Source: Diplocarpon mali | Lineage: Eukaryota; Ascomycota; Leotiomycetes; Helotiales; Drepanopezizaceae | DNA length: 61,718 nucleotides | NCBI GenBank assembly: GCA_024741835.1 | Contig: JAENRP010000261.1 | Span: forward strand, 3,150 to 64,867 | Direction: 5' to 3' | Part shown: positions 19 through 53,358 of the stretch, piece after piece | Position numbering within the stretch: position 1 is the stretch's first letter | How the letters are laid out: the number at the start of each line of letters is the position of its first letter | The notes under the pieces: model-generated | Seen by the model: only the letters and a program-made list of their open reading frames with translations | Database searches by the model: none | What the model was told of the DNA's origin: nothing | Program-made: the position numbers and the translations under genes

Positions 19-41
19 ACCTACGGGCCAGGCCTAGGAGT
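19..41 (-). repeat. PAL23 copy, 3' non-coding part of Gy-L
   Basis: Lies beyond the orfX2 stop codon, so this copy appears non-coding. It has no partner in the window because copy 2 is cut before this point. Confidence 0.75.
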
Positions 42-443
42 TAGAAAACGAAACTAGTAAAATAAACAAATAAGCTATAAAATCGCAAAAACAATTAAAA
101 ATAGTACTAACCTAAATATTAATTTTCCTTAATTCTCTTTAAAGGATAAGGAGAACTATTATTAGATAATACTCTCTTTATAAAGCGCCTACTTCTTTTT
201 AATAGTTCACTATTAGTATTAGAAGAGTCCGGTCTTAGTATTGCAAAAGCTTTAGTATTTCGTATAGATACTAGTATAGTTTGATAGCTTCTACTAATAG
301 GAAGAGAGACTTATATTATAGTATTATTATTATTATCCTCTTTATTATTATTATCATCCTTTAAAGAGTCTTCTACTATAGAGGGGGATAAGGCGGGCAG
401 CTCCTTAGATAATACTTCCTTGCCCTTACCTTTATTCAAATTG

Positions 444-466
444 AGTTGCAGGCCAGGCTTAAGAGT
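444..466 (-). repeat. PAL23 copy in orfX2 C-terminal region
   Basis: Read in the orfX2 frame as T-L-K-P-G-L-Q-L near codon 1042. It sits at almost the same position as the last copy in orfX1 (codon 1039). Confidence 0.8.
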
Positions 467-1265
467 CGTATCAGGAGTTTTAGCATAAGGTTTCTTAATG
501 CTATATTTCTTAAGAAGAATTATCTTATCAATTATATTATTAGCCTTAATATTATCTTTAGTACCTTTCGTCTTAGCCTAGGATTTACTACTATATAACT
601 ATAGTTCTAGTTATTATATTAGCTTTTAAATATTAGCAAAATCTTTAAAAAGTTCTTACTTATATTTCTTTAAATATATTATCAGTTATACTATATCCTT
701 TAAGAACAACTCCTTTATAGCTATTACTACTAATAGGTCATTCTATAATCTTTTACCTATAAGGGCCTTTGATAATAGACCGCCTTTTATTATACTAAAG
801 GTTATATAGAACTTTATAAAAGATTCTTTTACCGCACCCTATCTTACTATACTTAGTCTCTTTATACTAAATAAGTTAATAAGAAAATCTTCTAGGTTAG
901 TGCTATTCTTAAGTAAATCATTACCAATAACTTCCGTATAGTTATTGCTAATAGTTAAAAAACCGCCCTTTCCAGATTCCTATTCCAAATTGAGATTAAT
1001 AAATATACCTTATCTTATAAATACTAAAAATAGAGTAGTATCGTTTGAAACGTATTCCTTTAAGACAATTTTCTCCTTAGTATTTAGCTCTTTTTATTAT
1101 ATAGCGCTTTGCGCTAGATTTAACAAGATCTATTAAGAGTTCTTAAGATAATAAGATATAAGTATAAATGACTTATAAGACTTTTCCTATATAGCAAATT
1201 CTTTAATCGATTGTTTTATAGCTAGAATCATATAATAGTCAATAGTTCTATTATTAAGGGAGTTG

Positions 1266-1288
1266 ACCTACGAGCTAGGCCTAGGAGT
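1266..1288 (-). repeat. PAL23 copy in orfX2
   Basis: In frame at codon 768 (T-P-R-P-S-S, RIP stop, V). The orthologous copy is 53336-53358; the paralogous site in orfX1 is 5218-5240. Confidence 0.85.
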
Positions 1289-2495
1289 CGATCTAATAAA
1301 TCGTAAGTTAGCGTCAATCTTAGTAGTAATAACTCTTAAATAGTAGTTAATATCTACAAATTATATAGGTTTAGGATACGCTACCAACTTATATAAAGAC
1401 TTATAACAATTTAATAGCGCACTAAGATATAGCCTATAGTATATTCTTAAAGTCTATTATATCAAGCTATGCGTTATATTATAGAGAAATGCAAAGGGAG
1501 GCGAAAGTTTTTTATTAGAATTCCGAAAATAATACTAGTACATTTCCAATTCCTCTTATACTAATATTAAAAATGAATTCTTTTTATAATAGCTAAAGCT
1601 ATATATACGCATAGCGCTTAGAAAGGTATAGCTAAGCAATTTAAGCATATTTAAAAAGCCTTTGCTATAGAGCGATATTAAGGTATTATTAGTTAGTATA
1701 GTCTTATACTAAGCAGGGGTCTAAGCGATATTATAGAATACTTTAAGGGCCTTAGGTGCTACTCAGAACTTGGAGAAACCTAACGAAATATCTTTCTTAA
1801 CTTAATTAGCTATTCTATTACTAATAGCTATAATTGCATAGTTTCTAAAGTGTAATAAGAATAGTTTTAAATCGGGAGTAGTATAAAATTTATAGATGTT
1901 GGATAATACCTCTTTATTAGTAATTCCTATTAATGCTAATCTATAGTATAGTGCATATTATCGTTTATAAAGGGTATAAAATTTCTTAAAATGGAAGTCT
2001 CTAAATATCCCTATTAAGAATTTACTTAAGCGTATCTTCATTTCTAGTATTACTATAACTCTAAATTTATTACTATACTATAGTATTATCTTAATATTAA
2101 AGGGGACTTAATAACATTCTATAGAGATTATTATCGTAATGTCTTCCGGCTTCTCCTTAAGCATATAGTAGTCGCCCTTCGATTTCTTATAGTTGATAAA
2201 GAACTATATAATATTATCTATAGAGAATTTGTCTTATTATAGTTTTATAATCTATTTAATAGCTCTTGCTATTCCTTCTTATACTAATAAAACTTCTCCT
2301 TAGCCTTCCTTCTTTAAACGTTTCATTATTAACTTATAAAATTTAAAAACAAACTTTTATAAGTCCTTAGGAAAAGATTGTATAATATTTACAATATCCT
2401 TCTTAATATTATTAAAAATTTCTAAGACGTTAGTAATAATGCTCCCTTTTTCATTTGATAAATCTTCTTCTAAGTCTATAATATTATATATGCTA

Positions 2496-2518
2496 ACCTA
2501 TAAGCCAGGCCTGCGACT
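2496..2518 (-). repeat. PAL23 copy in orfX2
   Basis: In frame at codon 358 (S-R-R-P-G-L, RIP stop, V). Its ortholog is 52106-52128. No equivalent is present in orfX1. Confidence 0.85.
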
Positions 2519-2681
2519 TAATTTATTTGCTACTAGTGTTTAAGGTATTTAAGGCACTTTTAGGGATAGTAATTCAAATTCGTTTAAGTCGGAAAATAGG
2601 TAGTCGGGCTAGTATTCTACTTAAGCTTTAGGTGTTATAAGCACCTTATGCTTAAGGACTTCTTTATTATATACTTCTTCT

Positions 2682-2704
2682 ACTCGTAGGCTGGGCCTAC
2701 GAGT
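2682..2704 (-). repeat. PAL23 copy in orfX2, near-perfect palindrome
   Basis: Ten of eleven arm bases pair, the exception being a G:T-type mismatch. In frame at codon 296 as T-R-R-P-S-L-R-V. Orthologs are at 17372-17394 and 51928-51950. Confidence 0.9.
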
Positions 2705-3592
2705 TAAGTCGGGCTCGTTTGTTAATTCGGCTATAGGTAGTAGTAGCTTCGCAGCAGCAGGGATAATAAATTCCTATCTTTCTATTTTATTATTAAAGTA
2801 GTTTATAATATACTTAGCGAGATAAATCATCTTTTCTTTTATAATAAATAGACCGCATTATAATTATTATAAGCCAAGCGTATCTAGAACTATTTAATTA
2901 AGGAGTATAAAATTATTATACTAAGCGGGGCTGTCTTTTATAGTCTAAATAGTAGAGTATACGATAGTGCTTAAGAATCTAATAAATCTTCTATCCTAAA
3001 TACTATTTCCCTGTAATTTCTTTATATCTTCTTAGATAGTGAAATAGTTTAAAACCTATATAGCCCTTACTATAGGTTAGTATATTTTAAAAAATTTACT
3101 AAGCCCTTATAGGGCATTATTAGCAGTAATATCGGTTATAAAGTAGGTCTGGAAAAGTATGCTATAAGTGCCGTCTATAAGTTGCATTAATCTTTTTATA
3201 TACTTATTTTTCTTATCTCGGTTCTTCTGAAACAAATCAACTGAATTAGCATACCCTTAATACTCTTATAAAAACTTTTCTTAATTAATACCTTTGCTTT
3301 AAAGTTCCTTATCTAAGAAATCATCGAAACTTAAGAATCCTTCCTTAATAGTAGAAATTCTATAGTTAAGCACCTTAATAGATGAATTTAAGAATACCTA
3401 CTATTTTATCTTACTTAATATTCTATAGGTGCTTACTATATCTTTCAATAATCTTAGTAACTTACTATCCTATAAGAACCCTCCTTCTAATATTAGTTTA
3501 TTATTAGTAGTACTTAAGGACTTGCTGCCTAAGGTAACAACCGATATATTCTTCTTAGATATGGCCTTTTTACTTATAGTTAGTAGTACTAT

Positions 3593-4154
3593 AATGAATT
3601 ATTCAGCAAGAGGGGTAGCTTTAAATAAAGAGATGATTATTTAAGAAAGATTAACGATATAGGAGGCTTGTACTAGAAAAGATTGATAATAGAAAGATAA
3701 TAGTAGTAGTACTAGTATTATAGGTCTAGTAGGGTTGAAAAAAAGAAGTAAAAAAAAGTAAAATCGTAGTGCGAGGAGAGGCTTATTTATAGAGTTTAGA
3801 GTCGCGCTAGTGTATAAAGGAAAAGTGGGCATAAAGAGGCTGGAAGTGGGAATAAAGGTAGGGTATAACGCATATAAGGACCTATAATTAGTAAAGATAA
3901 TTATCAAAGGTAAGGATGACATTTCAAAGGTAAGCGTTAGAAAGTTATATATAAAGGGAATAATTAAAGAATAAATTATATAAAAAGTAAAGTAAATAAA
4001 GAATATATATAGAATAGAATAATAGGTTGAGAATAAAGAGGTATAGGTATATAGAAAGTAGATAATCTTAAAAAAATTCAACTTCTAATTCGCAATTTCT
4101 CCAAATGGTTTTTAAGGAAAGGGGGGTAGACTCGATTCTTTAGATCGAGTCGAC
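3593..4154 (-). other. orfX1-orfX2 intergenic spacer of Gy-L
   Basis: AT-rich spacer between the orfX1 stop and the proposed orfX2 start, conserved in copies 1, 2 and 4 but with small indels that change frame between copies. That argues against its being coding, although copy 1 happens to keep it open. Read on the minus strand it contains a TATATATAG run followed by two direct repeats of CTTACCTTTGA. These could belong to an internal promoter for orfX2; that role is inferred. Confidence 0.45.
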
Positions 4155-4332
4155 TTAATTATCAGTTCTATTATCACTTTAGGGTCTTCTTCTTTTGCAT
4201 TAGTTCTTATTTCTTAGCGATTTCTTAGCTTTAAGGACCTCTTTTAAAGGATCTTCTATTAGTACCCTTAGATTTAGTAATTGAGGTTCATCCGAACTAT
4301 CTTATAGGCTTAAGCCAGCTGAGTCTAACCTC

Positions 4333-4355
4333 ACTCGCAGGCTAGGCTCGCGAGT
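4333..4355 (-). repeat. PAL23 copy in orfX1 C-terminal region
   Basis: In frame at codon 1039 as T-R-E-P-S-L-R-V. Orthologs are 19016-19038 and 50274-50296. Confidence 0.9.
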
Positions 4356-5217
4356 CAGTCTTAGCGTTTTTAAGCTTAAGGGTAAAAACAGGGGATTAGT
4401 TCCTAAATTAGGGTCTAATATTATACTAGCGTCTTAGTTTGTCTCTTTTCCGAATTTTCTTATAATAATACCTTTATTAATTAGTATATTAGGCTCTTAG
4501 ATAGCATTTACTTTATCGCATTATCCTTAAGACTTAAGTTTATAAAGAAGCGACTTAGTATTTATAATATTTATCTAGGCCTTAATAAGGGTATTAAAGA
4601 GTTTTTAATTATATTTTATAAGGTGGATTTTCAACTTATCTTTATTAAGAAGGAATAACTCCTATACTTTAATTATAATAAAGGGATCCGTTTAAAAGCG
4701 CTAATTAATAATAGCTTTAAAAAGGCTGCTGCAGTTCTTAAGATGAAAAGCTGCTTTAAAAGGTGCAATAGTTCTACTTATATTAATCTATTAAGGTACT
4801 AGAGGTTGCTTTAGAGTAAAGATTAAAAAGATAAGATCGGAGATTCGAATCTTATTTTCTAAGGTATTCTTATCGCAAATAGCCGTATAGTTATTGCAAA
4901 AGGCTATAAAACTACCAGTTTTATAAAGTTTATCTAAGTGTATTTTAAGAAGGTGCCCTTATTTTATTATTACTATAATAGGGTTACTATTATTAGTAAT
5001 AGGCTGCAAGATCTTATTTTACTTTATTTTTATAGTTATATAAGCTAATTGAGATTTTAAACCAAGTGCCTAAGAAGTCTATCGACTTATCTTCTTTATA
5101 AATAGAATAAGTTTTATATCTAACTAAGAGCCGATCTACCTATTAAGGCTTTTAAAAGCTGGCCCTTATTTAATTAGTAGGATCTAATAATCTAAGACTT
5201 ACTTTTTAATAAAATTG

Positions 5218-5240
5218 ACTTATAGGCTAGGATCGCAAGT
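5218..5240 (-). repeat. PAL23 copy in orfX1
   Basis: In frame at codon 744 (T-C-D-P-S-L, RIP stop, V). Orthologs are 19901-19923 and 49389-49411. Confidence 0.85.
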
Positions 5241-6603
5241 AATAATCGGATTTTCTTTATTAGTAGCACTTATATCTCTCTTTATTAAAATAACTTAATT
5301 ATAAAGACTAAGACCAATTAATTAAAGAGGTTTAAAGTAGGCCATAAGCTAATAGGCTCTTTTACTTTTCGCTATTATAGCTAAGAGGTAGAGTTTATAA
5401 TATATCCGAAGGACTTATTAAGTAAGATTAAATATTATATTATAAAGAAAATAAGAAGGTATAAAGGTCGTATTATCTATAGGGCAGAAGTAATAAAGGT
5501 ATATCTCTACTTCTTATCTTATAATAGAGAGGAATATACCTATAAAAGCACTATTATTAATAGTAAAACTATCGATTAAGAAGCGATATCTAAAGGGTTA
5601 AGGCATTATAATTAACCCTTCTTCTTCTATTTCCTTTTATTATTTATTGCTTAATAATATCGAAAAGAAAGAATTGTTCTATTTAATTAGCTCTAACGCC
5701 TTTAAGACTTTAGGATTAGCCTTAAATTTTATAGCATTTAAAGATGCTTCTATTATTAATAGGTTAGATTTGCGTATCCTTAAAGAGATAAAGAATTAAT
5801 TATTAAAGTAGATTAGAAAAAGATTGATATCTTTTACTATATAGAAAAGTTCGAAGTATTTAATAGTTTTATTAATATTAAAGCCTTTATAATTAAGACT
5901 ATAGTAAACTAAAAGAGAGCGAATATAAAGGTTGCAAAGTCTTCTTACTTCGATTCTTATACTAAGAAGATACTATCGAAAGCGAGTTTTTATTATAAAG
6001 GATATTTAAATATTATATTATTCTTTAAGCTTAAGGTTAAGAATAACCGATTAAGGCATATTACTATAATTACAAATATCCTAATTAATAGATTCCTCTT
6101 CGCATTCTCCTTCTTATAAGATAAAATAGTCTTATTTAACATTTAAAAGACTAGGTTTTTAACTTCTATAATTATTAAAGAATTAAATAATAACTATAAG
6201 GGCGAACTTATTTAAGATAAGCTATTAAATTTATCTAATAGCTCTTCTAATTGTCTTTAAAGTAATAAGAATAGGGTCTTCTCTTATATTATCGTTTCTA
6301 AAACAGTTGTATATAAATATAAAGAATTTAAGAACTAGCTCCTTTAAATTATTAGAAAAGGAGTCTAAGCGAGCGCGCAATCCTTTAGTTTTAAATTGCA
6401 AATTAGCTAAGGTAGCTATTAAACGATCTATCCTTTTTAAAGGTCGAGCTAAAATAAGTCGTTTAACTAAAGGAGAGTCCCTTAAAAATTCCGAAAATTC
6501 TAAAGAGGCTGCGCTAAGCGTTTAAGCAGTTTATTTAATAGCAGTTTTTAAAATCATTTTAGCAAAAGGTAGGTTAGGTCTAGTTTTAAAATTCTCGCTT
6601 CTA

Positions 6604-6626
6604 ACTCTTAGTTTAGGACTATAAAT
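6604..6626 (-). repeat. PAL23 copy in orfX1
   Basis: In frame at codon 282 as I-Y-S-P-K-L-R-V. Its ortholog 42374-42396 reads T-Y-G-P-K-L-G-V. Confidence 0.8.
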
Positions 6627-7866: not shown

Positions 7867-7889
7867 ACTCGTAGGACCGGCTTATAAAT
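7867..7889 (-). repeat. PAL23 copy at the pol C-terminus
   Basis: In frame 19 codons before the pol stop (I-Y-K-P-V-L-R-V). Its ortholog is 41107-41129. Confidence 0.75.
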
Positions 7890-9301: not shown

Positions 9302-9324
9302 ACTTATAGGCTAGGTTTACAAGT
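9302..9324 (-). repeat. PAL23 copy in the RNase H-integrase linker, shifted frame
   Basis: The only clear exception to the common reading frame. The surrounding pol frame reads it as L-V-N-L-A-Y-K-L-N, one base out of register. The same holds for its ortholog 29991-30013. Confidence 0.8.
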
Positions 9325-11430: not shown

Positions 11431-11453
11431 ACTCTTAAGCTAAGACCGCGGGT
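11431..11453 (-). repeat. PAL23 copy in the protease-RT linker
   Basis: In the pol frame as T-R-G-L-S-L-R-V. Its ortholog is 27862-27884. Confidence 0.8.
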
Positions 11454-12899: not shown

Positions 12900-14330
12900 G
12901 GATCTCTAATGCAAAGCATCCTATACTTATTAATATGTATAACCTTAGTATTAATAAAATAATAGAAAAGAGGACATTTGTTATAATACTTATATAAAGG
13001 GCAATTAGGTTCCTTATTATTATAAAAGTTATAAGTTAGTCTTCTTTTATTGCTATTCCCTTAATACCTTATAGTATTAATATTAGTAGAGTATTAGTTA
13101 AGATTAATTTCTCCTTCTTTAATCAACTATTAAGTTCTTATATTAGCTGGTTATTCCGAATGATAAGAAGTAGGAGTCTAGTAATAGGAACTATTAGGTT
13201 GGCTTATAGTAGTCGAGTTTTACCTATTACTAAATTAGGGAATATGCTATTTTTCTTATAAGAGATTATTAATCCTAGTTTTTAAGCTTTAGATTTAGAG
13301 TTTTATAAATTAAGTCTTAAGTTCCTTAATTCTAAGGTTGGATCTTACTCTTAAGTTAGGACTATAAGTAAAAGGTATAATTACTAGGTTCTTCTTTGCT
13401 TCTTCTATAACTTCCAGAGCTTTCGAATGTTCTTAGACTAGGCTTTTAAGGTCTTTAGTATAAAAGGGAGTAAGGGATTTTTCCTACTTTATAATATTAA
13501 TAGTTCTCTTATTAAGATCTGATTTTAAAGTAAAGGCTAAGAATTCCTTAAATAAGGCGAAAGTTATAAGGTCTTACTTATCGATTCTAAAATACTTAAT
13601 AATCTTATTTTAAAGGCTAATAGGTAATCTAAGTAAGAAAAGGCAGCCTCTTTCAACTTTGCTAAGTATTTTCTAGCTAATTAAGGTATTTAATATATAA
13701 GTAAAAGTCCGATAGTAGTTCTTAATTTCCTTAAGAGTATAAGTAGTTAGAATAAATTCCTTTAAGAAAGCTAGGGTATTGCGAATCTGCTATCTATTAA
13801 ATTCGCGGAATTTAGATTTAAGGGCCTTAATAAGGAGTTCTTATAAACTATGAGTTTTCTATTTAAAGAGGGATTTGATAATATCTTTACTTATATAATT
13901 ATAATAGCAAGGAAGTCGAAAAATCATATCCTTTTATATAATACCAAAATCGTAATAAGTTTCCTTATATTACTTAAGGAAATTAGTAATATTAATGCTT
14001 ATAAAGTAAGAAGCGCTAGGAGAATGAAAGAGGGAAAAGTAATTAATAATAGCCCTAAATATGGCTATTATCGTTTTATACTAACTGTTTAAGTTGATAG
14101 AATCTATAAAAGGTAAAGGGGAAGCTTTAATATTGCAAAATTGATTGCTAAGAAGAGTACTTCGAAATTCAAAAGGGCTTAAAGAACGCTTAAAATCTGA
14201 GTCAATCTTAAAGTAACTAAGATAAGTTTAAAAAGATTTAAATAAAGGGTTAGTAAAAAGTTTAAAATTATTATTATTTTTAGTATTTTCTAGTATTAAT
14301 ATTGAAAAAGTAAGTAGCAGTCTTAAGTTA
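12900..14330 (-). pseudogene. Gy-L gag region, copy 1
   Basis: Structural protein region between the 5' leader and pol. It is read best in the sister copy 3, where a continuous frame includes segments such as L-L-I-K-A-F-K-A-E-F and F-N/D-Y-Y-Q-T-F. A degenerate Cys knuckle (C-P-L-Y-K-Y-Y-N-K-C) is seen near 12970-13010 on the minus strand. Gag identity is inferred from position plus this motif. Ends are approximate and the gag/pol junction is not resolved. Plus-strand reading frames over this stretch are antisense by-products. Confidence 0.45.
13347..13369 (-). repeat. PAL23 copy in gag
   Basis: Reads T-Y-S-P-N-L-R-V on the gag strand. Its ortholog in the short element is 38812-38834 (T-Y-S-P-S-L-R-V). 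Confidence 0.8.
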
Positions 14331-14355: not shown

Positions 14356-14378
14356 ACTTATAGGCTAGGCCTAGGAGT
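14356..14378 (-). repeat. PAL23 copy upstream of or early in gag
   Basis: Would read T-P-R-P-S-L, stop, V. It is out of phase with the gag copy at 13347, and the same phase difference is kept in copy 3 (39782-39804). It may therefore lie in the 5' leader. Confidence 0.75.
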
Positions 14379-17361: not shown

Positions 17362-18292
17362 AGCTAATTCGACTCGTAGGCTAGGCCTATAAGTCAAATT
17401 TTCCTTATTGGTTAGTTCTATTAAGGGTGGCAACATTTTCTAGGCGGCGGGAATTACAAACTCCTATCTCTCCGTCTTGTTGTTAAAGTAGTTTATAGTA
17501 TACTTAGCGAGATAGATCATCTTTTCTTTTATAATAAGTAGATTGTATTATAACTATTATAGGCTAAGGGTATTTAAAATTGTCTGATCTAGGAGGGCTA
17601 AACTATTATACTACGCGGGATCGTCTTTTATAGTCTGAATGGTAGAGTGTATAATAGTACTTAAGAACCTTATAAATTTTCTACTTTTTATATTATTGCT
17701 TTAGAGTTTCTTTATACCTTCTTAGATAGTGAAGTGATTTAATACTTATATGGCCTTTGCTATAGGTTGGTATATCTTAAAAATTCTACTTAATTCTTAT
17801 AGGGTATTATTAGTAGTGATATTGCTTATAAAGTAAGTCTAGAAGAGTATACTATAGGTGCTACTTATAAATTGCAGCAATCTTTTTATATATTTATTCT
17901 TCTTATTCCGGTTTTTTTAAAATAAATCAATTAATATAAAATAACTTTAATACTTTCATAAAAACTTTTTACAATTAATCCCTTTGACCTTAAGCTTACC
18001 TTTAAGGAAATTATTAAAGCTTAGGAATCCCTCCTTAATTATAGAGATTCTATAGTTAAATATATTAATAGATAAGTTTAGGAATACTTATTATTCTATC
18101 TCGCCTAGCGTCTTATAGGTGCTTATAACGTCTTCTAATGATTGAAGAGACTTGCCGTCCTACGAGAATCTACCCTTTAGCATTAGTTTATTATTAGTAG
18201 TATTTTATAACTTGCTGCCTAAGGTAATAATTGATATATTCTTCTTCAGTATGGCTTTCTTGCTTAAGCTCGGTGGTGCTATAATAAATTAT
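17362..18292 (-). pseudogene. orfX2 N-terminal fragment (copy 4)
   Basis: About 310 codons from the proposed start (ATA at 18290-18292, as in the other copies) down to the truncation. It reads K-K-A-I-L-K-K-N-I-S, then F-S-Q-D-G, I-S-T-Y and E-Q-Q-V-F-L, matching copies 1 and 2. RIP stops are present. Plus-strand reading frames here are antisense. Confidence 0.6.
17372..17394 (-). repeat. PAL23 copy in orfX2 fragment
   Basis: Reads T-Y-R-P-S-L-R-V, orthologous to 2682-2704. Only ten bases from the Cop-B/Gy-L breakpoint. Confidence 0.85.
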
Positions 18293-18837
18293 TTAGTAGG
18301 GGGGATAGCTTTAAACGAAGAGATGACTATTTAGGAAAGATTAATAATATAAGAGGCTTATATTAGAAAAGATTGATAATAGAAAGATAATAGTAGTAGT
18401 GCTAGTATATAGGTTTAGTAGGGTTATAAAAGAAGTAAAAAAAGTAAAATCGTAGTGCGAGGATAGGCTTATTTATAGAGTTTGGAATCGCGCTAATGTA
18501 TAAAGGAAAAGTGGGTATAATAAGGCTAGAAGTAAGAATAAAAGTAGGGTATGATATATAAGGACCTATAATTAGTAAATGACAATTGTCAAAGGTAAGG
18601 ACGACATTTTAAAGGTAAGCGTTAGAAAACTATATATAAAGGGAATAATTAAGGAATGAATTATATAAAGAGTAAAGTAAATAAAGAATATATATAGAAT
18701 AGAATAATAGGTTAAGAATAAAGAGGTATAGGTATATAGAAAGTAGATAATCCTAAAAAGATTCAACTTTTAATTTGCAATTTCTCTAAATGGTTTTTAA
18801 AGGGACAAGGTAGACTTAATCCTTTAGATTGTTCGAT
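18293..18837 (-). other. orfX1-orfX2 spacer, copy 4
   Basis: Counterpart of 3593-4154, with the same AT-rich runs and small indels relative to copies 1 and 2. No gene seen. Confidence 0.5.
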
Positions 18838-19015
18838 TTAATTGTTAGTTTTATTATCACTTTGAAGTCTTCTTCTCTTGCGTTAGTTCTTACTTTTTAG
18901 CGATTTCTCAACTTTAGGGGCCTCTCTTAAAGGATCTTCTATTAGTACCCTTAGATTTAATAACTAAGGTTTATCCGAACTACCTTATAGGCTTAAGCCA
19001 GCTAAGTCCAACCTT

Positions 19016-19038
19016 ACTTATAGGCTAGGCTCGCGGGT
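19016..19038 (-). repeat. PAL23 copy in orfX1 fragment
   Basis: Reads T-R-E-P-S-L, stop, V, orthologous to 4333-4355. Confidence 0.85.
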
Positions 19039-19900
19039 CAGTCTTAGCGTTTCTAAGCTTAAGGGTAAAAACAGGGGATTAGTTCCTAAATTAAGGTCTA
19101 ATACTATACTAGCGTTTCAGTTCGTCTCTTTTCCGAACTTTCTTATAATAATGCCTTTATTAATTAGTGCATTAGGCTCTTAGATAGCATTTACCTTATT
19201 ACATTATCCTTAAGACTTAAGTCTATAAAGAAGCGATTTAATATCTATAACATTCGTTTAAGTATTAATAAAGGTATTAAAGAGTTTTTAATTATATTTT
19301 ATAAGGTAGATTTTCAACTTATCTTTATTAAGAAGGAATAACTCTTATACTTCGATCTTAACTAAGGGATCTATTTAAAAGCGCTAACTAATAATAGCTT
19401 TAAAGAGGCTACTATAATTCTTAAGATAAAAAGCTGCTTTAAAAGGTATAGTAGTTCTATTTGCATTAATCTATTAAGGTACTAAAGGTTACTTTAGAGT
19501 AGAGATTGAAAAGATAAGATCGGAGATTCGAGTCTTATTTTTTTAAGTATTCTTATTATAAATGGCTATATAATTATTGCAAAAGGCTATAAAACTACTA
19601 GTTCTATAAGGTTTATCTAAGAGCATTTTAAGAAGGTGCCTTTGTTTTATTATCACTATAATAGGGTTGCTATTATTAGTAATAGGCCGCAAGATCTCTT
19701 TTCGCTTCATTTTTACAGTTATTCGAGCTAGTTGAGATTTTGAACCAAGTGCTTAAGAAGTCTATTAAATTATCTTTTTCGCAGATAGAGTGAGTTTTAC
19801 ATTCGACTAAGAGCTAATCTACCTATTAAGGCTTCTTAAAGCGGGTCCTTATCCGATTAGTAGGATCTGATAATCTAAGACTCGCTTATTAGCAAAATTG

Positions 19901-19923
19901 ACTTATAGGCTAAGACCGCAAGT
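19901..19923 (-). repeat. PAL23 copy in orfX1 fragment
   Basis: Reads T-C-G-L-S-L, stop, V, orthologous to 5218-5240. Confidence 0.85.
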
Positions 19924-20585
19924 AATAATCGGATTTTCTTTATTAATAATAGCATTTGCATCTCTCTTTATGAAAATGACTTAATTATAAAGATTAAAGC
20001 CAATTAATTAAAGAGGTTCGAAGTAGGTAATAAGCTAATAGGCTCTTCTATTTTCCGCAATTATAGCTAAGAGGTAGAGTCTATAGTGCATTTAAAGGAC
20101 TTATTAAATAATATCGAATATTATATTATAGAGAAAGTAAGAAGGTATAAAGGTCGCGTTTTCTATAGAGTAAAAGTGATAAAGATATATCTCTATTTCT
20201 TAATATATAATAGAAAGGAATATACTTATAAAAGTACTATTATTAGTAGTAAAGTTATTAGTTAGGAAGCGATGTCTAAAGGGTTCAGGCATTATAATTG
20301 ATCCTTTTTCCTCTATTTCCTTTTATAGTTTATTACTTAATAATATCGAAAAGAATGAGTTATTCTATTTAATTGGCTCTAACGCCTTTAAGGCTTTAGG
20401 ATCAGCCTTGAATTTTATAGCACTTAAAGATACCTTTATTATTAATAGGTTAAACTTGCGTATCTTTAAGAAGATAAAGAATTAATTATTAAAGTAAATT
20501 AGAAAAGATCAATATCTTCTATTATATAAAGAAGTTTAAGGTATTTAATAGTTTTATTAATATTAAATCCTTTATAATTTTTTTT

Positions 20586-33156: not shown

Positions 33157-33310
33157 ACTTATAGGCCGGGCCTAGGAGTGGAATCGCCTTTATTGATCTG
33201 TGCTGAAATCACTCGTAGGCCGGGCCTGGGAGTGGAATCGCTTTTGTTAATCTGCGCTGAAATCACTTATGGGCCGGGCCCGGGAGTAGAATCGCCTTTA
33301 GTAGCGAGTA
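33157..33310 (-). repeat. Three 54-bp units each carrying a PAL23, RNase H-integrase linker
   Basis: PAL23 copies start at 33157, 33211 and 33265, exactly 54 bp apart. The unit encodes 18 residues: T-P-R-P-G-L-R-V plus the spacer I-S-A-Q-I-N-K-G-D-S. All three are in the pol frame (the other two read T-P-G-P-G-P, stop, V and T-P-R-P-G-L, stop, V). Confidence 0.9.
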
Positions 33311-35166: not shown

Positions 35167-35234
35167 ACTTGCGGGCTAGGACTAGGAGTGGGATTCGAGT
35201 TCGCGGTTTTCACTCGCGGGCTAGGATTAGGAGT
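35167..35234 (-). repeat. Two PAL23 copies in the Gy-S protease-RT linker
   Basis: Copies at 35167-35189 and 35212-35234, 45 bp apart, inside a stop-free stretch of 80 codons. They read T-P-S-P-S-P-Q-V and T-P-N-P-S-P-R-V. Confidence 0.9.
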
Positions 35235-35939: not shown

Positions 35940-37189
35940 TTTAACTTTAGGCAGTCTATTGTATAGTAACTGGGAGCTCTGCAGTTATAGCAAAGACTAG
36001 ACGACGGCTTTAGGCTAGCAGACCTTTCTTAATAAGTTGCTAATAAGGGGGAATAAGTATAGGGAGCTAAGGAGGTAGCTATAGTAGTAGGTCTTTATAA
36101 CTCCCTTTTTAATATACTAAGGATACGGTCCTTTGAAGGGGAGAATGCGATAGCAGGAGCGACTTATTAAGCGTTATAGGCCTCTTCTTACTTAATATTA
36201 TAGGCCTTATGGTCTGCAATAGCTAAGAACTCATTTAAAGTAATATAATTATTATTTATTTTATACTTCTTTACTTAAAGGTTATTCTTTAAAGCTAAGG
36301 AGACCTTTTTATAAATATTATCGAATTAATAAGACTAATCGATCTTTCTAATTATAATAAGGGTAACGAACTTAGATTAGAACTTATTATATAATAATAA
36401 ACCTATAATTAGCCTACTATATTTAAGCTTAGCGGACTAAATATAGTTATAATTAAAGAACCTTTGATCTAAGACCTTAAGGATATTAGTAGCGTATATA
36501 AACTTATTAGTAAAGATAGGATTTATATATTATAGGATTAGGTTTTAAGCTTTACTTATTATATATTTAAAGTAGGTAGTAATCTAATCCTCTCTTAAAG
36601 TGAAGTTGCTTAAGTACTTTTAAATAAATACCTTTATAGCTATCTTTTAAGCGTTATAGGTAATTTCGCCTTAGTAGTTGCTAAAATAGGTTTAAAAGTA
36701 CTTAATTTGATAAGGGTCGACGGCTAAGACTAAAGGTCGGATAATTAAGAGGTAGTAGTCTAAGGGAGGCAGTAAGTCGGCGGTAAGGGACCGAGTGTTC
36801 TAAGGGCTAGCACTTAAGGAAGAAGGGGCAGCTATATTATTTTAAAGAGCGGCGGCTATAGCAGCGCTAATAAGGTTTGCGATTTCGGCCTATTAAGCAG
36901 TTGAAAAGAAAGGGGCCGATATAGTAAGAGTAGATGTCTTTAAAGAGAGTATAACTTCTTCTTTAACTTTAATCGATAGCAATAGGGTATTTCGAAAATC
37001 CACTCGCGGTCTAGGCCTAAGAGTGAAATCGGTACTAAGGGAGGTTTCTTCTTAAGTAGGCTTAAGAAAGGGAATATCTCTAGGACTAGGGTTAGCAGTA
37101 AGGCCTATAGAACTGGTAGCAGTAAGGCCTAGTGGTAAAGGTGCGGTTAACCTTTCACTTCTCTTAAGTGGTATAAGATTAGAGGTCAT
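35940..37189 (-). pseudogene. Gy-S gag with zinc knuckle
   Basis: Capsid/nucleocapsid protein starting M-T-S-N-L-I-P-L-K. It shows a long gag body (L-K-Y-S-R-L-I-I-G-L-L, then E-F-L-A-I-A-D-H-K-A-Y-N). At 35950-35992 it has the knuckle C-Y-N-C-R-A-P-S-Y-Y-T-I-D-C, a CX2CX4HX4C box in which His has become Tyr, a CAC-to-TAC change. One PAL23 lies at codon 55. RIP stops are scattered. The ATG is chosen as the first in frame after the leader. Confidence 0.7.
37002..37024 (-). repeat. PAL23 copy in Gy-S gag N-terminal linker
   Basis: In the gag frame as T-L-R-P-R-P-R-V, between a Pro/Ser-rich N-terminus and the gag core. Confidence 0.9.
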
Positions 37190-38259: not shown

Positions 38260-38282
38260 ACTTATAGGTTAGGCCCGCAAGT
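38260..38282 (-). repeat. PAL23 copy at the end of the copy 3 reading frame
   Basis: Reads T-C-G-P-N-L, stop, V. In phase with the two other copies at 38389 and 38812. Confidence 0.8.
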
Positions 38283-38388
38283 GGATTTCAAAGAAATATA
38301 TAAAAGGAAAGAGGGAAGGGGAAGGGGAGAGGTGCGGTAGTAAATGAATAAAAATGATAAAAACTCCTTTTCCTCCTTTAGTAATACG

Positions 38389-38411
38389 ACTCTTAGTCTA
38401 GGACTGCGAGT
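38389..38411 (-). repeat. PAL23 copy in the copy 3 gag remnant
   Basis: Reads T-R-S-P-R-L-R-V. It has no counterpart at the matching region of Gy-L copy 1. Confidence 0.85.
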
Positions 38412-40743: not shown

Positions 40744-40748
40744 GTAAT

Positions 40749-40920: not shown

Positions 40921-41166
40921 AATAGAGTCGATATTAAAGGAACCTTTATAGCTAATCGACTAAAACGCTTTTATCAACGCAACTAGACCTTATTCCCTTT
41001 AAAAGACGAATCAGGAACTAATATAACCTTCAAATATTTTATAGGAACCAATGGCAATATAAGCAATTTTAAACCCTTGGACAAAGACTAAGATTTTTCC
41101 AACTTAACCTATAAGTCGGTTCTATAAGTAAAGAATATTAAAATACTTAACTAATTACAACCTTAA
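40921..41166 (+). pseudogene. Gy-L pol C-terminal end (copy 2)
   Basis: Continuation of the integrase C-terminal region after Gy-S, reading G-T-F-I-A-N-R-L-K-R-F-Y and then T-L-F-P-L-K-D. It ends at TAA 41164-41166 after a PAL23 at 41107. The stop is at the same place in copy 1. Confidence 0.7.
41107..41129 (+). repeat. PAL23 copy at the pol C-terminus (copy 2)
   Basis: Reads T-Y-K-S-V-L, RIP stop, V, 19 codons before the pol stop. Confidence 0.75.
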
Positions 41167-44681: not shown

Positions 44682-44770
44682 ACTCGCGAGCCAGGCCTAG
44701 GAGTCAATTCCTTATTAGAAGGCGATTCCTCTTTAGGACCGATTTCCACTTGCAGGCCGGGACTAGGAGT
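44682..44770 (+). repeat. Two PAL23 copies in the Cop-A gag-protease linker
   Basis: 44682-44704 (T-R-E-P-G-L-G-V) and 44748-44770 (T-C-R-P-G-L-G-V), both in the polyprotein frame and 66 bp apart. Confidence 0.92.
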
Positions 44771-46160: not shown

Positions 46161-46282
46161 ACTCCTAGGCCGGGACCGCGAGTCAATTCTTACTCTTACG
46201 ATTTCACTCTTAGGCCGGGACCGCGAGTTAATTCTAACTTTTATAATAATAATAATTTCACTCCTGGGCCGGGACCGCGAGT
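46161..46282 (+). repeat. Three PAL23 copies in the Cop-A integrase-RT linker
   Basis: Copies at 46161, 46206 and 46260 read T-P-R-P-G-P-R-V, T-L-R-P-G-P-R-V and T-P-G-P-G-P-R-V. They lie in a stretch that is still stop-free over 99 codons (46071-46370). Spacings are 45 and 54 bp. Confidence 0.95.
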
Positions 46283-48081
46283 CGATTTAAGAGAAGCTGA
46301 TAAAGCTGAGCTTCTGTCTTTAAGAAAAAGAGGAAGACCTCTTAGTTTAAAGAATAAGGCTCACCCTTAGCCTTCCGAAAAGAGAACTACTCGCTTAACT
46401 TATGCTCTTAGATTTAAAGCTAATAACTCTAATAATAAGGAAGCCTATTTAGGCGCCTTTTATATAGCCTTACTCGACTCTCTTTACTTAAATGACCCGA
46501 AAACAGTCGAATAAGCCCTCTCTTGCGCTAACGCCGATAAATAGCGATCTGCGATCAACTTTAAGTACAATTCCTTTACTTATAAGAATATATAGGTAGT
46601 AGTAAAACGCTTAAAACTCTTTAAAGATGATAGAGTACTTAGATCGAGACTCGTCTTTAAAATAAAAAGAGATTAAAATAAGGAAATCTCTTAATAGAAG
46701 GTCAGATTTATTATATAAAGCTATATGCAATAATAAGGTCGAGATTATAACTAAACCTTTGCTAGCATCTGCAAATCTGCCGTTTAAAAGATTGCAATTG
46801 CGCTTATAGCTCTTTACAACTTTAAGCTAAATTAGTTCGATATTAAAATAGCTTTCCTTAATTTAAAAGCTGACTCTAATATCTATATTAAGTTACCTCT
46901 TAAATACACTTAAGATAAGGTCGTTCTTTCACCTTAAGACTACTATCTTAAGCTTCTTAAGGCCTTATATAGCTTAAAGCAATCTCTATAACTATAGTAA
47001 GAAAAGCTACGGTCCGAGCTATAAAAGCTCGATTTTCAACCTCTTAATACTAATAATTGCGTATATATCAACCGCGCCTCTCGGATTCTCATTATCACCT
47101 ATATTAACAACTTCCTTATAGTAGTAAAGAAGGGTGATATATATAATAAGTTTAAAAGAGATCTTCGCAACCTCTTTAAAATCATAAGTAGCGAACCGGC
47201 TAACTACTTCTTAAGAGTATATATAATTAAAGATCGATAAAATAGAATAATCTCACTTTATTAAAATACCTATATTAATAAGGTTCTTAAACGTTTTTAT
47301 ATAACTAATTGCAAAAGCGTATTAACGCCTTTTGCTAATAGCTATAAAGTTCATATAGTCAAATTTAAAGGCCAAGCTACTTTATAAGAAGTGAAGCTAT
47401 ACTAAAAGATCTGTAGTTCTCTATAGTACCTTGCGCATTATACGCATTAGGATATACTATACTACTGCTCCATTCTTAGCAAATTCCTTACTAACCCTTT
47501 ACTATAATATATAGTAGCTTTAAAACGAGTTTTATAATACTTATAAGGAACGCGCTTCTATTATACTACCTTCGGAAGCAAAACAACTGACCTAGAGCTT
47601 TAGAAATTATATAGCTATTGCGATTCTAACTAAGCAGGTGATAAAGGAAGTAGAGCCTCCTATTCTAAGGCCGTCTTCTTCCTTAATAATAGCGTAATTA
47701 CCGCCTTCTTTAAGCGATAAACTATTATTGCTCTCTTATCTATAGAGGTAAAGTACGTCGCTATATGCAAATTCGCATAAGAGGCCTCTTAGATATGCTA
47801 AGTACTTAAGGAAATAGGCTACGCTAGCAATAACGCTACTAAAGTCGAAATGATCTGCGATAACTAGGAAGCCCTTTATCTTACCGAAAACCCCGAATAT
47901 CACTAGAGAACGAAGCATATCGATATTAAGTTCTATTATATTCGGCAAGAACTTTAGAAAGGCTATTTAAACCTCTAGTATACAAATACTAAAGACAACG
48001 CCGCCGATAGACTTATTAAGAGCTTAAATAGCTCCAACTACGCCGCCTTTATTAAATTGTTAAATATAAAGGTTCTGCACC

Positions 48082-48170
48082 TTGATTAAAGGGTGATTTT
48101 TTTTTATACCTCTATTATAAGGTGATTTTTTTTTGCACTTCTATTAAAGGGTGATTTTTTTTTACTCCTA
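48082..48170 (+). repeat. Three 29-bp tandem units with GGTGATTTTTTTT
   Basis: The GGGTGA/AGGTGA box recurs at 48091, 48120 and 48149, each followed by a T-run, just past the Cop-A stop codon. Confidence 0.8.
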
Positions 48171-48186
48171 GGCCGGGCCCGCGAGT
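48164..48186 (+). repeat. PAL23 copy in the Cop-A 3' untranslated region
   Basis: Directly follows the third 29-bp unit. Non-coding, with a GC core in otherwise AT-rich sequence. Confidence 0.85.
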
Positions 48187-48221
48187 TGATTTTGACTTAC
48201 TAAGGGGTAGATTTCCTACTC

Positions 48222-48253: not shown

Positions 48254-48363
48254 TTTCCAATATCTGCAGGTTGATTTTTCATATAAAACTGTAGATTATA
48301 ATAAAAGTTATAATATTATATGTATTGCTAGCGAGTACCTTTAAAGGTCTCCCTAGAGGGGTG

Positions 48364-48605: not shown

Positions 48606-49388
48606 AAACGATATAATATTCAAGTGTCTTTTATAATAAAAACTCGCTTTCGATAGTATCTTCCTAGCGTAGGAATCGAAGGGAGAAGACTTTGCGACCT
48701 TTATATTCGCTCTCTTTTAATTTACTATAGTCTTAATTATAAAGGATTTGATATTAATAAAACTATTAAATACCTTAAACTTCTTTATATAATAGAAGAT
48801 ATTGATCTTTTTTTAATCTACCTTAATAAACAATTCTTTATCTCTTTAAAGATATGCAAATCTAACCTATTAATAATAAAGGCATCTTTAGATGCTACGA
48901 AATTTAGGGCTAATCCTAAAGCCTTAAATGTATTAGAGCTAATTAAATAGAACAATTCCATCTTTTCGATATTATTAAGTAATAAATAATAAAAGGAAAT
49001 AGAGGAAGAAGGGTCAATTGTAATGCCTAAACCCTTTGGATACCGCTTTGTAATTGACAATTTTACTACTAATAATAGTACTTTTATAAGTATATTCCTT
49101 TCTATTATAAGATAAGAAGTAAAGATATACCTTTATTACTTCTGCCCTATAGATAACGCGACCTTTATACTTTCTTATTTTCTTTATAATATAATGTTTA
49201 GTCTTACTTAATAAGTCCTTCGAATATACTATAGACTCTACCTCTTAGCTATAATAGCAAAAAGTAAAGGAGCCTATTAGCTTATCGCTTATCTTAAACC
49301 TTCTTAATTGATTGGCCTTAGTCTTTATAATTAGGTTATTTTAATAAAAAGAGATATAAGTACTATTAATAAAGAAAATCCGATTGCT

Positions 49389-49411
49389 ACTTGCGGTCCT
49401 GGCCTATAAGT
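49389..49411 (+). repeat. PAL23 copy in orfX1 (copy 2)
   Basis: In frame (T-C-G-P-G-L, RIP stop, V), 361 codons before the stop codon. Confidence 0.85.
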
Positions 49412-50273
49412 CAATTTTATTAGTAAACGAGTCTTAGATTATTAAATCCTACTAATCGGATAAGGACCCGCTTTAAGAAGCCTTAATAGGTAGATTAGCT
49501 TTTAGTTAAATATAAAACTCACTCTATCTATAAAGAAGATAAGTCAATAGACTTCTTAAGCACTCGGTTTAAAATCTCAACTAGCTCGAATGATTATAAA
49601 AATAAAGCGAAAAGAGATCTTACGGCCTATTACTAATAATAGCAACCCTATTATAGTGATAATAAAACAAAGGCACCTTCTTAAAATGCTTTCGGAAGAA
49701 CCTTATCGAACTGGTGGTTTTATAGCCTTTTGCAACAACTATATAGCTATTTATAATAAGAATACCTTAGAAAATAATATTCGAATCTCCGATCTTATCT
49801 TTTCAATCTCTACTTTAAAGTAACCTCTAATACTTTAATAGGTTAATGCAAATAGAACTACTGCACCTTTTAAGGCAGCTTTTCATCTTAAGAACTGCGG
49901 TAGCCTCTCTAAAGCTATTATTAATTAGCGCTCTTAAACGGACCCCTTAGTTATAATTAAAGTATAGGAGTTATTCCTTCTTAATAAGAACAAATTGAAA
50001 ATTCACCTTATAAAATATAATTAAAAACTCTTTAATATCCTTATTAAGGCTTAGATAAACGTTATAAATACTAAATCACTTCTTTATAAACTTAAGTCTT
50101 AAGGATAATATAATAAAGTAAATGCTATCTAAGAGCCTAATATACTAATTAATAAAGGCATTATTATAAGAAAGTTCGGAAAAGAGATAAACCGAGATGC
50201 TAATATAGTAATAGACCTTAATTTAGGAACTAATCCCCTGTTTTTACCCTTAAGCTTAGAAACGCTAAGACTG

Positions 50274-50296
50274 ACTCGCAAGCCTGGCCTATAAGT
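50274..50296 (+). repeat. PAL23 copy in the orfX1 C-terminus (copy 2)
   Basis: In frame 66 codons before the stop (T-R-K-P-G-L, RIP stop, V). Confidence 0.9.
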
Positions 50297-50474
50297 AAGG
50301 TTGGACTTAGCTAGCTTAAGCCTATAAGATAGTTCGGATAAACCTTAATTATCAAATCTAAGGGTACTAATAGAAGATCCTTTAAGAGAGGTCCCCGAAG
50401 CTGAGAAATCGCTAAAAAGTAAGAACTAACGCAAGAGAAGAAGACTCTAAAGTGATGATAAAACTGATAATTGA

Positions 50475-51039
50475 GTCGAACGATCTAAAGAATTAAGTCT
50501 ACCTCCCCCCTTTGAAAACCATTTAAAGAAATTGCAAATTAGAAGTTGAATTTTTAAGATTATCTACTTTTTATATACTTATACCTCTTTATTCTTAACC
50601 TATTATTCTATTCTATACATATTCTTTATTTACTTTACTCTTTATATGATTTATTCTTTAATTATTCCCTTTATATATAGCTTTCTAACGCTTACCTTTA
50701 AAATATCGTCTTTACCTTTAATAATTGTCATTTACTAATTGTAGGTCTTTATATATATTATATCCTACTTTTATTCTTACTTCTAGCCTCTTTATACCTA
50801 CTTTTCCTTTACGCACTAGTACTATTCCAAACTCTTTAAATAAGCCTCCTCCCCGCACTACGATTTTACTTTCTTTACCTTTTCTATAGTCCTACCAAAC
50901 CTTAGCACTAGTACTAGTAATACTACTACTACTATATTCTATTATTAATTCTTTCCTAATACCAGCTTACTATCTTATTAATCTTTCTTAAATAAGCTTC
51001 TACGAGTTCTATCACCTTATCCCTGCTAAATAATTCATT
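50475..51039 (+). other. orfX1-orfX2 spacer (copy 2)
   Basis: AT-rich, with the same order of TATATATAG and CTTACCTTT motifs as copy 1. It has a one-base difference from copy 1 that changes frame, which supports a non-coding status. Confidence 0.45.
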
Positions 51040-51927
51040 ATAGTACTACTAAGCTTAAGTAAGAAGGCTATACTTAAGAAAAATATATCAGTTGTTGCCT
51101 TAGGCAGCTAGTTAATGAATACTACTAGCAATGAACTAATACTAAAGGGTGGCTTTTTATAGGATAGAAAAGCTCTAAGATCATTAGAAGATATTATAAC
51201 TACTTATAGAACGTTAGATAAGACGGAGTAATAAGTATTCCTAAATTCGTCTATTAAAGTACTAAACTATAGAATTTCTACTATTAAAGAAGGATTTTTA
51301 GGATTTGACGATTTTCTTAAGAAAGAGCTTAAGATTAAGAGAATCGATTGGGAAAAGTTTCTATAAAAATATTAAGGGTATGCTAATTCGATTGATTTGT
51401 TTTAGAAGAATCGAAATAAGAAAAATAAGTATATGAAAAGACTTATGCAATTTATAAACAGAATATATAGAACGCTCTTTCGGAGCCACTTTATAAATGA
51501 TATTACTACTAATAATACTCTGCAAGGACTCGGCAAGATTTTTAAGATGTATTAACCTACGGTAAGAGCGATATAGGTATTAAATCATTTCACTATATAG
51601 GAAGGAATGAAAAAGCTATAGGAAAATAACGTCAGAAGTAGAAAATTTATAGGGTTCTTAAGCACTATTATACACTCTACCATTCAGACTATGAAAGACA
51701 ATCCCTTATAGTATAATAATTTTGCACTCTTTAATCAGACTATTTTAAATTCCTTCAGCTTACAATAGTTATAATATAGTCTACTTATAGTAAGGGAGAA
51801 GATGGTCTATCTAACTGAGTATTCTATAAACTACTTTAATAATAAGATAGAAAGATAGGAGTTTATTATACCTACCGCTTAGAAAATGCTACTACTCTTA
51901 GCGGATTTAACTAATAAGCCAAATTTG

Positions 51928-51950
51928 ACTCGTAGGCCCGGCCTATAAGT
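51928..51950 (+). repeat. PAL23 copy in orfX2 (copy 2)
   Basis: In frame at codon 296 (T-R-R-P-G-L, RIP stop, V). Confidence 0.9.
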
Positions 51951-52105
51951 GGAAGCTTTATATAATAAAGATGCCCTTAAGCATAAGTTGCCTATAATAC
52001 CCTTATATATAAATAATAGACTACCGCGATTGCTAATCATCTAAGTCAGACGACTTTGATTCCCTATCTCCCGAAATCCCTTAAATACCTATAGTAATAA
52101 AATTG

Positions 52106-52128
52106 ACTCGCGAGTCCGGCCTACGGGT
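52106..52128 (+). repeat. PAL23 copy in orfX2 (copy 2)
   Basis: Reads T-R-E-S-G-L-R-V in the downstream orfX2 frame; ortholog of 2496-2518. Confidence 0.85.
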
Positions 52129-53335
52129 CGATATACGTAATATCATTAACTCAAATGGTAATTTGACTGATAAAGATAATAGTATAGCCACTAATGTATT
52201 AGAAATTTTTAATAATAGTAAGAAAGATACATCCGACCTTATATAGACTTTTCCTAAAGACTTGCAAAAGTTTATATTAGAATTTTATAAGTCTATAATA
52301 AAGCGTTTGAAAAAGGAAGATTAAGAAGAAGTTTTATTAGCGTAGGAAGGGATAGTAAGAGCTATTAAACAGATTATAAAGCTTTAAGAAGATGGATTTT
52401 CTGCTGATAATATTATATAGTTTTTCATTAAGTGTAAAAAGCTAAAGGGTAATTACTATATTCTTAAAGAAAAATCAGACGATAGTATAATAACCATCTC
52501 TATAAAATGCTATAAAGTCCCCTTTAATATTAAAATGATACTATAGTATAATAATAGATTTAAGATTATAGTAACGCTAGAGATAAAGATATAATTAAGC
52601 AGATTTGTAATAGGAATATTTAAAGACTTTAATTTCGAAAAATTTTATACTCTTTATAAGCGATAATATATATAATACTATAGATTGGCAATAGCATCTC
52701 TGACTAACGAATAAGTCTCCTTTAATATATACAAATTCTGCACTACACCTGACCTAACTCTATTCTTATTATATCTTAGAAATTATATAAACGTGGCCGC
52801 TAGTAGCAGAATGGCCAACTAGATTAAGAAAGATATATTATTAGGTTTTATAAAATTTAAGGTAGCACTTAAGGCTTTAAAATTGTTCTATAATATCTCT
52901 TAGACCCTCGCCTAGTATAAGTCCATACTAACCTTAAACAACTTTATATCACTTTATAGCAAAGGCTTTTTAAATATACCTAAACTATTTAATTGCGTAT
53001 TCTTAAGTATAGTACGCATATAAGGCTATAGTATTCGCAGGAAGAGTTCGTTTATAACTTTAGCATAAAAAGAGGTAGAAATGTATAAATACTATTTCCG
53101 CACCTTAGATAAGAAATCATCGCTACCTTCCGCCTTCCTTTATAATATAACTTTTAGCTTAATATAATAGATATTAAGGATGCATTATAGATTATATCTT
53201 AATGCTCTACTAACTTATTATAATTCTTTATATAAGCTAGTAGCTTATCCTAAGCCTATATAGTTTATAAGGATTGACTACTATTCGAGAATTGTTGCTA
53301 CTAAAATTGATACTAATATAAGGTTTGTGAAATTG

Positions 53336-53358
53336 ACTCCTAGGCCCGGCTTATAGGT
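53336..53358 (+). repeat. PAL23 copy in orfX2 (copy 2)
   Basis: Reads T-P-R-P-G-L, RIP stop, V; ortholog of 1266-1288. Confidence 0.9.

Follow-up and report, generated by a model that had tools for sequence, protein, structure and literature searches.

Palindromes carried within coding sequence have so far been described from bacteria and organelles and are presumed to be selfish DNA. The Rickettsia palindromic elements lie in bacterial host genes and are longer units than the one described here. A repeated motif inside a long terminal repeat (LTR) retrotransposon is also known from Drosophila gypsy, whose array of Su(Hw) sites is located in the untranslated leader and has a known binder. We have analyzed a window of 61,718 nt of Diplocarpon mali (contig JAENRP010000261.1 of assembly GCA_024741835.1, positions 3,150-64,867) in which a GC-rich palindrome recurs within retrotransposons. 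Like the gypsy array it is a repeated motif inside such elements, there protein-binding and here a candidate for it; unlike that array it is often placed in linkers that are coding, and it has no known binder. We assign a probability of about 0.46 to the reading that it is an old, oriented dyad DNA signal of 29–35 bp inside Copia, Gypsy and unassigned repeats, which is kept by recognition and/or block copying.

With the Rickettsia and Wolbachia palindromic elements our palindrome has in common that palindromic DNA is carried in frame in tolerant protein segments at many unrelated places (PMC2996958, in the part consulted). The hosts here, however, are fungal retrotransposons, the unit has about 30 bp and forms tandem arrays, and no insertion has been shown; the earlier note on this DNA, which had named the Rickettsia elements as precedent, drew a fair analogy that does not extend to the evidence for mobility. 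That paper also defines the palindromic amphipathic repeat coding elements (PARCELs) by a 25-residue amphipathic protein motif. PARCELs are likewise tandem in-frame dyad repeats of variable number, some of them linked to mobile elements, whereas our palindrome encodes a short peptide rich in proline, and its DNA block persists in further frames and orientations too; the translations show periods of 13 or 16 residues with a short proline-rich core and not the 25-residue motif. The yeast mitochondrial GC clusters such as GC42 are also short GC-rich palindromes in AT-rich DNA with many constrained copies; presence/absence polymorphism, a putative target-site duplication, constrained stems and free loops are reported for them (PMC4478555, in the part consulted). 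In Neurospora and Podospora there are ultra-short repeated palindromic or invasive sequences, but these are mitochondrial, to judge from titles cited in PMC7218506. The literature searched, mainly open-access papers, gave no description of our palindrome, and the earlier note had likewise known of none in fungal transposons; three sequence matches in papers on unrelated subjects are put down to chance.

Recurrence in the window and in the genome

The consensus ACTCGYRGGCCNGGCCYRCGAGT is found with at most five mismatches of 23 at 31 places in the window. A symmetric profile covering positions -11 to +11, trained iteratively on the better consensus matches and used with a cut-off of 12.3 bits, gives 42 sites of 15.7–39.2 bits from position 19 to 53336-53358. 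Forty order-2 Markov windows used as null model contained 0.5 sites per window at 12.3 bits and 0.275 at 14 bits, with a maximum of 18.5 bits. In the genome of the window (49.37 Mb, 676 contigs) the degenerate form ACTYNYRGGCYNRGCCYRNRAGT has 890 exact matches against none with the pattern reversed, the oriented form has 139 and 107 matches against none in the control, and ACTCCTAGGCCNGGCCTACGAGT at up to three mismatches has 1095 forward and 1087 reverse matches against 0 and 0, symmetric copies being scored on both strands in this last search. The Markov windows and the reversed patterns exclude chance or base composition as the source. The earlier note had staked its observation on a copy number above that of composition-matched sequence; the number is far above it, and the recurrent palindrome is confirmed. 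Rfam at gathering thresholds and a search for tRNA and tmRNA gave no match, and ACTCSYRGGCCNGGCCYRSGAGT did not match any of the contigs searched from bacterial and archaeal genomes.

The copies of the window are given below with their strand (a dot where none is assigned) and profile score; L numbers are our labels for loci fetched from the genome.

19..41,., palindrome copy, 33.9 bits; same context as L013 (flank cluster)
444..466,., palindrome copy, 27.4 bits; clusters with L063
1266..1288,., copy in element A, 28.5 bits; sister 53336 (aligned)
2496..2518,., copy in element A, 27.2 bits; sister 52106
2682..2704,., copy in element A, 37.2 bits; sisters 17372 and 51928; L005 family (flank-sampled)
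4333..4355,., copy in element A, 34.8 bits; sisters 19016 and 50274
5218..5240,., copy in element A, 27.1 bits; sisters 19901 and 49389
6604..6626,., weakest copy, 15.7 bits; sister 42374 (aligned)
7867..7889,., palindrome copy, 22.2 bits; sister near 41121-41143 retains the site below the cut-off (alignment)
9302..9324, -, copy in Gypsy family D, frame 1, 23.5 bits; sister 29991; relatives include L023
11269..11291,., copy in family D, 28.0 bits; sister 28024
11431..11453,., copy in family D, 24.3 bits; sister 27862
13347..13369,., copy in element E, 21.0 bits; sister 38812 (alignment)
14356..14378,., copy in element E, 33.0 bits; sister 39782 (alignment)
17372..17394,., copy in element 17368-20579, 34.1 bits; near the end of homology (self-BLAST)
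19016..19038,., palindrome copy, 29.2 bits
19901..19923,., palindrome copy, 27.7 bits
27862..27884,., copy in family D, 23.3 bits
28024..28046,., copy in family D, 23.9 bits
29991..30013, +, copy in family D, frame 1, 28.9 bits
33157..33287, -, tandem array of 33157, 33211 and 33265, 54-bp period, 35.7, 39.0 and 35.9 bits; Tandem Repeats Finder (TRF); L004 family
35167..35234, -, two copies, 35167 and 35212, 45-bp period, 31.8 and 30.4 bits; RVT_1 downstream
37002..37024, -, copy in putative Gag linker, 31.7 bits; no Pfam match; L009 family
38260..38282,., palindrome copy, 28.4 bits
38389..38411,., palindrome copy, 28.9 bits; clusters with L067
38812..38834,., copy in element E, 28.4 bits
39782..39804,., copy in element E, 30.1 bits
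42374..42396,., palindrome copy, 23.5 bits
44682..44770, +, two Copia copies, 44682 and 44748, reversed, 36.0 and 34.6 bits; relative L052
46161..46282, +, tandem array of 46161, 46206 and 46260 in a Copia linker, 36.3, 34.3 and 36.2 bits; Pfam
48164..48186,., palindrome copy, 39.2 bits; L076 family; adjoins 29-bp minisatellite (TRF)
49389..49411,., palindrome copy, 32.4 bits
50274..50296,., palindrome copy, 34.2 bits
51928..51950,., palindrome copy, 36.9 bits
52106..52128,., palindrome copy, 30.6 bits
53336..53358,., palindrome copy, 30.8 bits

The 43 copies counted by hand earlier become 42 with the profile, while the outer limits of 19 and 53358 stand. Collapsing sisters by self-BLAST leaves 28 positions, the number given before for independent sites; these, however, make up only about 21–22 separate contexts, because the copies in 33157-33287, 35167-35234, 38260-38411, 44682-44770 and 46161-46282 are tandem or close neighbours.

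For the genome we sampled 59 stretches from the lists of pattern matches, each with the palindrome and together holding 117 copies. Flank clustering placed 58 of them in repeated context, and the remaining one, L075, is similar to the L076 family on visual inspection. All in all 209 sites were examined (201 distinct places, since a few fetched loci overlap), which clustering by flanks sorts into 40 groups; 24 of these include at least two loci.

The 29-bp minisatellite beside the copy at 48164 (48078-48169, 3.2 copies) abuts the palindrome, and its neighbourhood is repeated across the L076 family. A borderline palindrome-like stretch of 10.8 bits was noticed at L004:1379-1401, about 100 bases upstream of a strong copy at 1500; a supposed frame-1 copy toward the C-terminal end of the L004 Pol, picked out by eye, was rejected at 8.7 bits.

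Anatomy, hosts and arrays of the unit

The anatomy of the unit was derived from 35 representatives, that is, the 40 clusters minus five judged to repeat the site of another; they were found by profile score, which favours conservation within the span -11 to +11. The unit is longer than 23 bp, about 29–35 bp, with the extended form RATTY-N-ACTC[C/G]YRGGCC-N-GG[C/A]CYRCGAGT-N-RA. Position -13 is Y in 34 representatives, +13 is R in all 35, +14 is R in 33 and -17 is R in 29. All four bases are found at -12, 0 and +12, and -11, -10, +11 and +13 are always of one base or base class. At position 5 the two arms carry Y/R in 25 of the 35, RR in 9 and YY in 1, and so few YY would be expected with P = 0.003 if the arms were independent. 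In correction of the earlier note, the arms are therefore not equivalent and the unit is oriented; position +3 (C in 24/35, A in 11/35) is a second orientation marker, and to 10 representatives no orientation could be assigned. What remains of the earlier claim that the symmetry extends outward is a block of biased composition outside the arms. Exact complementarity just outside the arms is seen at 13 of 28 window sites (p = 0.0045) but in only 8 of the 35 genome-wide representatives, against 8.8 in shuffles, and covariation of the bases flanking the arms was rejected, the window signal being absent genome-wide.

The hosts had been named Gypsy and Copia, and for some of the elements Pfam supports this. 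RVT_2, RVT_1 and Pol_BBD in L052 pass the cut-offs; the other matches lie below, as expected of decayed proteins. The Copia copies of the window at 46161-46282 are situated between SH3_retrovirus and RVT_2, those of L055 and of L052 (the relative of 44682) beside Pol_BBD, and those at 44682-44770 upstream of it. A Gypsy chromodomain element (the L004 family, window 33157-33287) carries its copies in a linker upstream of the integrase core, the copies at 35167-35234 are upstream of RVT_1, and in Gypsy family D the copy at 9302 lies between RNase H and the H2C2 integrase zinc domain, these two matches being below cut-off. Pieces of element A (772-6018, five palindrome sites), however, gave no Pfam match, and neither did the putative Gag pieces; a match of DotZ to a piece of element E, below the Pfam cut-off, is taken as chance. 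Element A and its sisters (772-6018, 17368-20579, 48611-53851) show long decayed frames on one strand, and the homology of the copy 17368-20579 stops beside palindrome 17372.

Among 30 integrase loci collected with the Pfam H2C2 profile, about 3 kb being viewed of each, the palindrome is present in 7, all of one Gypsy family, and at 16 bits was not found in the other 23. Three loci of this otherwise RIP-decayed set (RIP, repeat-induced point mutation), L028, L034 and L035 (G000:C498, C102 and C200), have stop-free frames of 964-1024 codons; the palindrome was not found in the roughly 3 kb viewed (best scores 9.9, -1.2 and -1.2).

At most readable sites the palindrome is read in frame 0, giving T-P/R-R-P-G-L/P-R-V. 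At L023/9302 it is read in frame 1 and at L052/44682 in frame 0 in the opposite orientation; the third frame of its common form contains a stop. In L060 the copies follow at a spacing of 61 bp, and each frame over 623 bases contains 12-26 stops. Because of both orientations, the two frames and the stop-filled 61-bp array, descent from a single ancestral protein segment is excluded. The statement that unrelated hosts share the palindrome without sharing a protein segment is thus borne out, and palindromic DNA is read in frame within unrelated genes, namely in Copia and Gypsy linkers.

Several sites carry arrays. In the Gypsy chromodomain family lengths of 23, 68, 113 and 158 correspond to 1-4 units with a period of 45 bp, and the window member, with length 131, has three units with a period of 54 bp. 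Twenty Copia copies collected by the left flank alone, as stretches of 610 bases, have 1 unit (one copy), 3 (one), 6 (two), 7 (five), 8 (five) or at least 10 units (six), ten being a lower bound because of the length of the stretches. Of 131 spacings in these copies 130 are multiples of three, and L055 and L106 differ by one 39-base unit. Such changes of unit number inside arrays are the only presence/absence variation seen.

Conservation, mobility and decay of the surroundings

In the L005 family, 21 copies of one site of which 20 were fetched by their flanks alone, transversions occur in none of 23 palindrome columns and in 24 of 120 flank columns (p = 0.014), whereas transitions are equal (0.187 and 0.184). 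Fourteen sister pairs of the window have transversions in 2 of 308 palindrome cells and 112 of 2737 flank cells (p = 0.0007, the cells being non-independent; two comparisons with 17372 are left out of these totals and the pair 7867/41121 gives only 9 aligned palindrome columns). In 151 Copia units, chosen by profile score, transversions between -12 and +14 are found at +3 (0.25), +10 (0.13) and -5 (0.02) with traces of 0.007 at +6, +8 and +11, and silent third codon positions are likewise kept; 23 of 25 spacer positions examined have 0.099-0.497. At site 7867 the rate is 0 in the palindrome and 0.0041 in the flanks. Four datasets agree with the symmetric, position-specific constraint to be expected of a protein-binding dyad site, while the changes at ±3 and -7 and the difference between the arms at position 5 speak against it.

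Altogether the palindrome is less changed than its flanks in four of six comparisons and more changed in two. The lower rate of change in most comparisons suggests that the palindrome is recognised or copied by something. A number of observations weigh against our reading of a kept signal. In the Gag-site family (21 copies) transversions amount to 0.039 in the palindrome and 0.014 in the flanks, and at site 9302 to 0.0097 and 0.0047; in the former they occur only at -3 and +3 and in the latter all at -7, so that change is restricted to particular palindrome positions (the copy L112 being excluded from the rates of these two sites and of 7867). The centre and ±12, variable between families, are fixed inside Copia arrays, a pattern that favours copying of the whole block over selection on single bases. 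The Copia units and the 35 representatives, selected by profile score, are biased toward conservation. The palindrome has no known binder, and its occurrence up to ten times within a single coding linker would be unusual for a binding site. We therefore hold constraint and short copying jointly. In L009 and L110-L129, G/T at -3 and C/A at +3, six bases apart, are present in all four combinations.

The earlier note had seen in the palindrome a miniature mobile or converted element and had proposed to compare occupied and empty sites. In five own-genome searches with full or joined flanks we scored the best 40 of 187, 175, 190, 893 and 172 candidates, and none of these was an empty site; the search with 893 candidates is weak, as its right flank is present at 4 places only. 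Because close relatives were scored first, these searches may have passed over an empty site of greater age. Twenty copies fetched from the search with 893 candidates all have at least one unit and twenty from that with 190 are all occupied; the twenty from the Gag-site search (172 candidates) comprise 19 occupied copies and a rearranged one, L112. The candidate empty sites of the latter search were rejected, since these copies keep the palindrome intact and have lost sequence next to it. In L112 (G000:C280:40440-40850) the Gag-site palindrome is rearranged against an upstream tandem repeat. With this one exception all family copies examined have the palindrome in the corresponding place, and sister elements of the window with 72.6-88.7% identity hold common palindrome sites.

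Homologues lacking the palindrome, which would mark insertion of a Rickettsia-type element, were thus not found in the own-genome searches, nor was the polymorphism with target-site duplication characteristic of a GC cluster or ultra-short mobile element; no target-site duplication was shown for any palindrome copy. Nor were the target duplication and the copies in unique DNA seen that one would expect of a miniature inverted-repeat transposable element with its terminal inverted repeats, 58 of the 59 stretches being in repeats by flank clustering and the last one by eye. In the absence of an empty site autonomous mobility is unsupported, and recent mobility does not agree with sites shared by sisters. 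Conversion may nevertheless have taken place, as the blocks of the Copia arrays are nearly transversion-free, including at bases variable between families, while the spacers have diverged. The earlier interpretation is on the whole partly supported.

The window contains no stop-to-stop frame of 250 codons, and its dinucleotide ratios (TpA/ApT 1.46; (CpA+TpG)/(ApC+GpT) 0.53) are what we take to be typical of RIP. In 79 within-family pairs, overlapping loci left in, C-to-T change in the flanks affects 47% of CpA, 38% of CpG and 14% elsewhere; in the palindrome the values are 70%, 39% and 4%. Only 3.8% of the Cs in the palindrome are in CpA, against 18.6% in the flanks. The contrast of a GC core with AT-rich flanks is therefore seen as claimed but is partly a product of RIP: much of it is survival, since CpA is scarce in the palindrome. 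Survival under RIP leaves the shared sequence of the palindrome unexplained.

Possible origin and significance

If the palindrome is the oriented dyad signal that we propose, DNA-level recognition would maintain it, most simply by a putative dimeric DNA-binding protein or, alternatively, by a putative nuclease or recombinase with copying activity on the same sequence. The members of an array may further be homogenised by short conversion or by duplication of the block. In-frame cassettes in linkers, local duplication and amplification together with the host elements are themselves shown; this amplification would account for most genomic copies, after which RIP decayed the surroundings more than the CpA-poor palindrome. 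Tentatively one may go further and regard it as a dyad cassette of about 30 bp, tied to no transposon family and acquired by unrelated Copia and Gypsy elements as in-frame linkers, that is kept, silent sites included, because a putative factor recognises it. Such a cassette might conceivably be a shared sub-transposon module, either exploiting many retrotransposons or serving them, and multiplying in arrays within their genes.

A selfish ultra-short palindromic element, of the kind of the Rickettsia elements or the yeast mitochondrial GC clusters, appears doubtful. Unrelated hosts, both orientations, two frames with a stop in the third and the placement in linkers by Pfam would all agree with it; the oriented, imperfect palindrome suggests one ancestor, the Copia blocks stay alike while their spacers diverge, and yeast GC42 is both mobile and constrained (PMC4478555, in the part consulted). 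Such an element would have entered tolerant linkers in frame, a route we likewise find unlikely, perhaps via hairpin template switching during reverse transcription, and its spread between retrotransposon families and into arrays is no more probable. The five flank searches (one weak) gave no empty site, however, a target-site duplication was not shown and none of the 59 sampled stretches has a unique-sequence context; moreover the centre base is family-specific, whereas recent copying would carry the centre along.

It is very improbable that the linker peptide T-P-R-P-G-L/P-R-V is what is selected, with the palindrome being incidental. Frame 0 at most readable sites and the Copia spacings in multiples of three speak for a protein-level repeat, but frame 1 at 9302/L023, the reversed reading at 44682/L052, the stop-filled 61-bp array of L060 and the conserved silent third positions do not fit, and the dyad symmetry would be left unexplained. 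Selection of an RNA hairpin for its structure, for example as a packaging or RNA-stability signal, has an equally slight chance of being correct. Of four 35-base units folded, three do better than almost every shuffled version (z -3.27, -4.32 and -4.68) and the fourth is unremarkable (z -1.76); against a hairpin are the usual mismatch at ±7, the lack of covariation at ±12, the four combinations at ±3 within one family and the presence of both orientations in coding strands.

The palindrome described here would be a nuclear case in fungal retrotransposons that has about a thousand genomic matches or more, forms arrays of at least 10 copies per gene and is conserved at silent positions too. Poor in the dinucleotide targeted by RIP, it is a sequence marker that stays readable in decayed elements, and such a nuclear case would allow the direct question of whether palindromes of this type are parasites or recognition sites.

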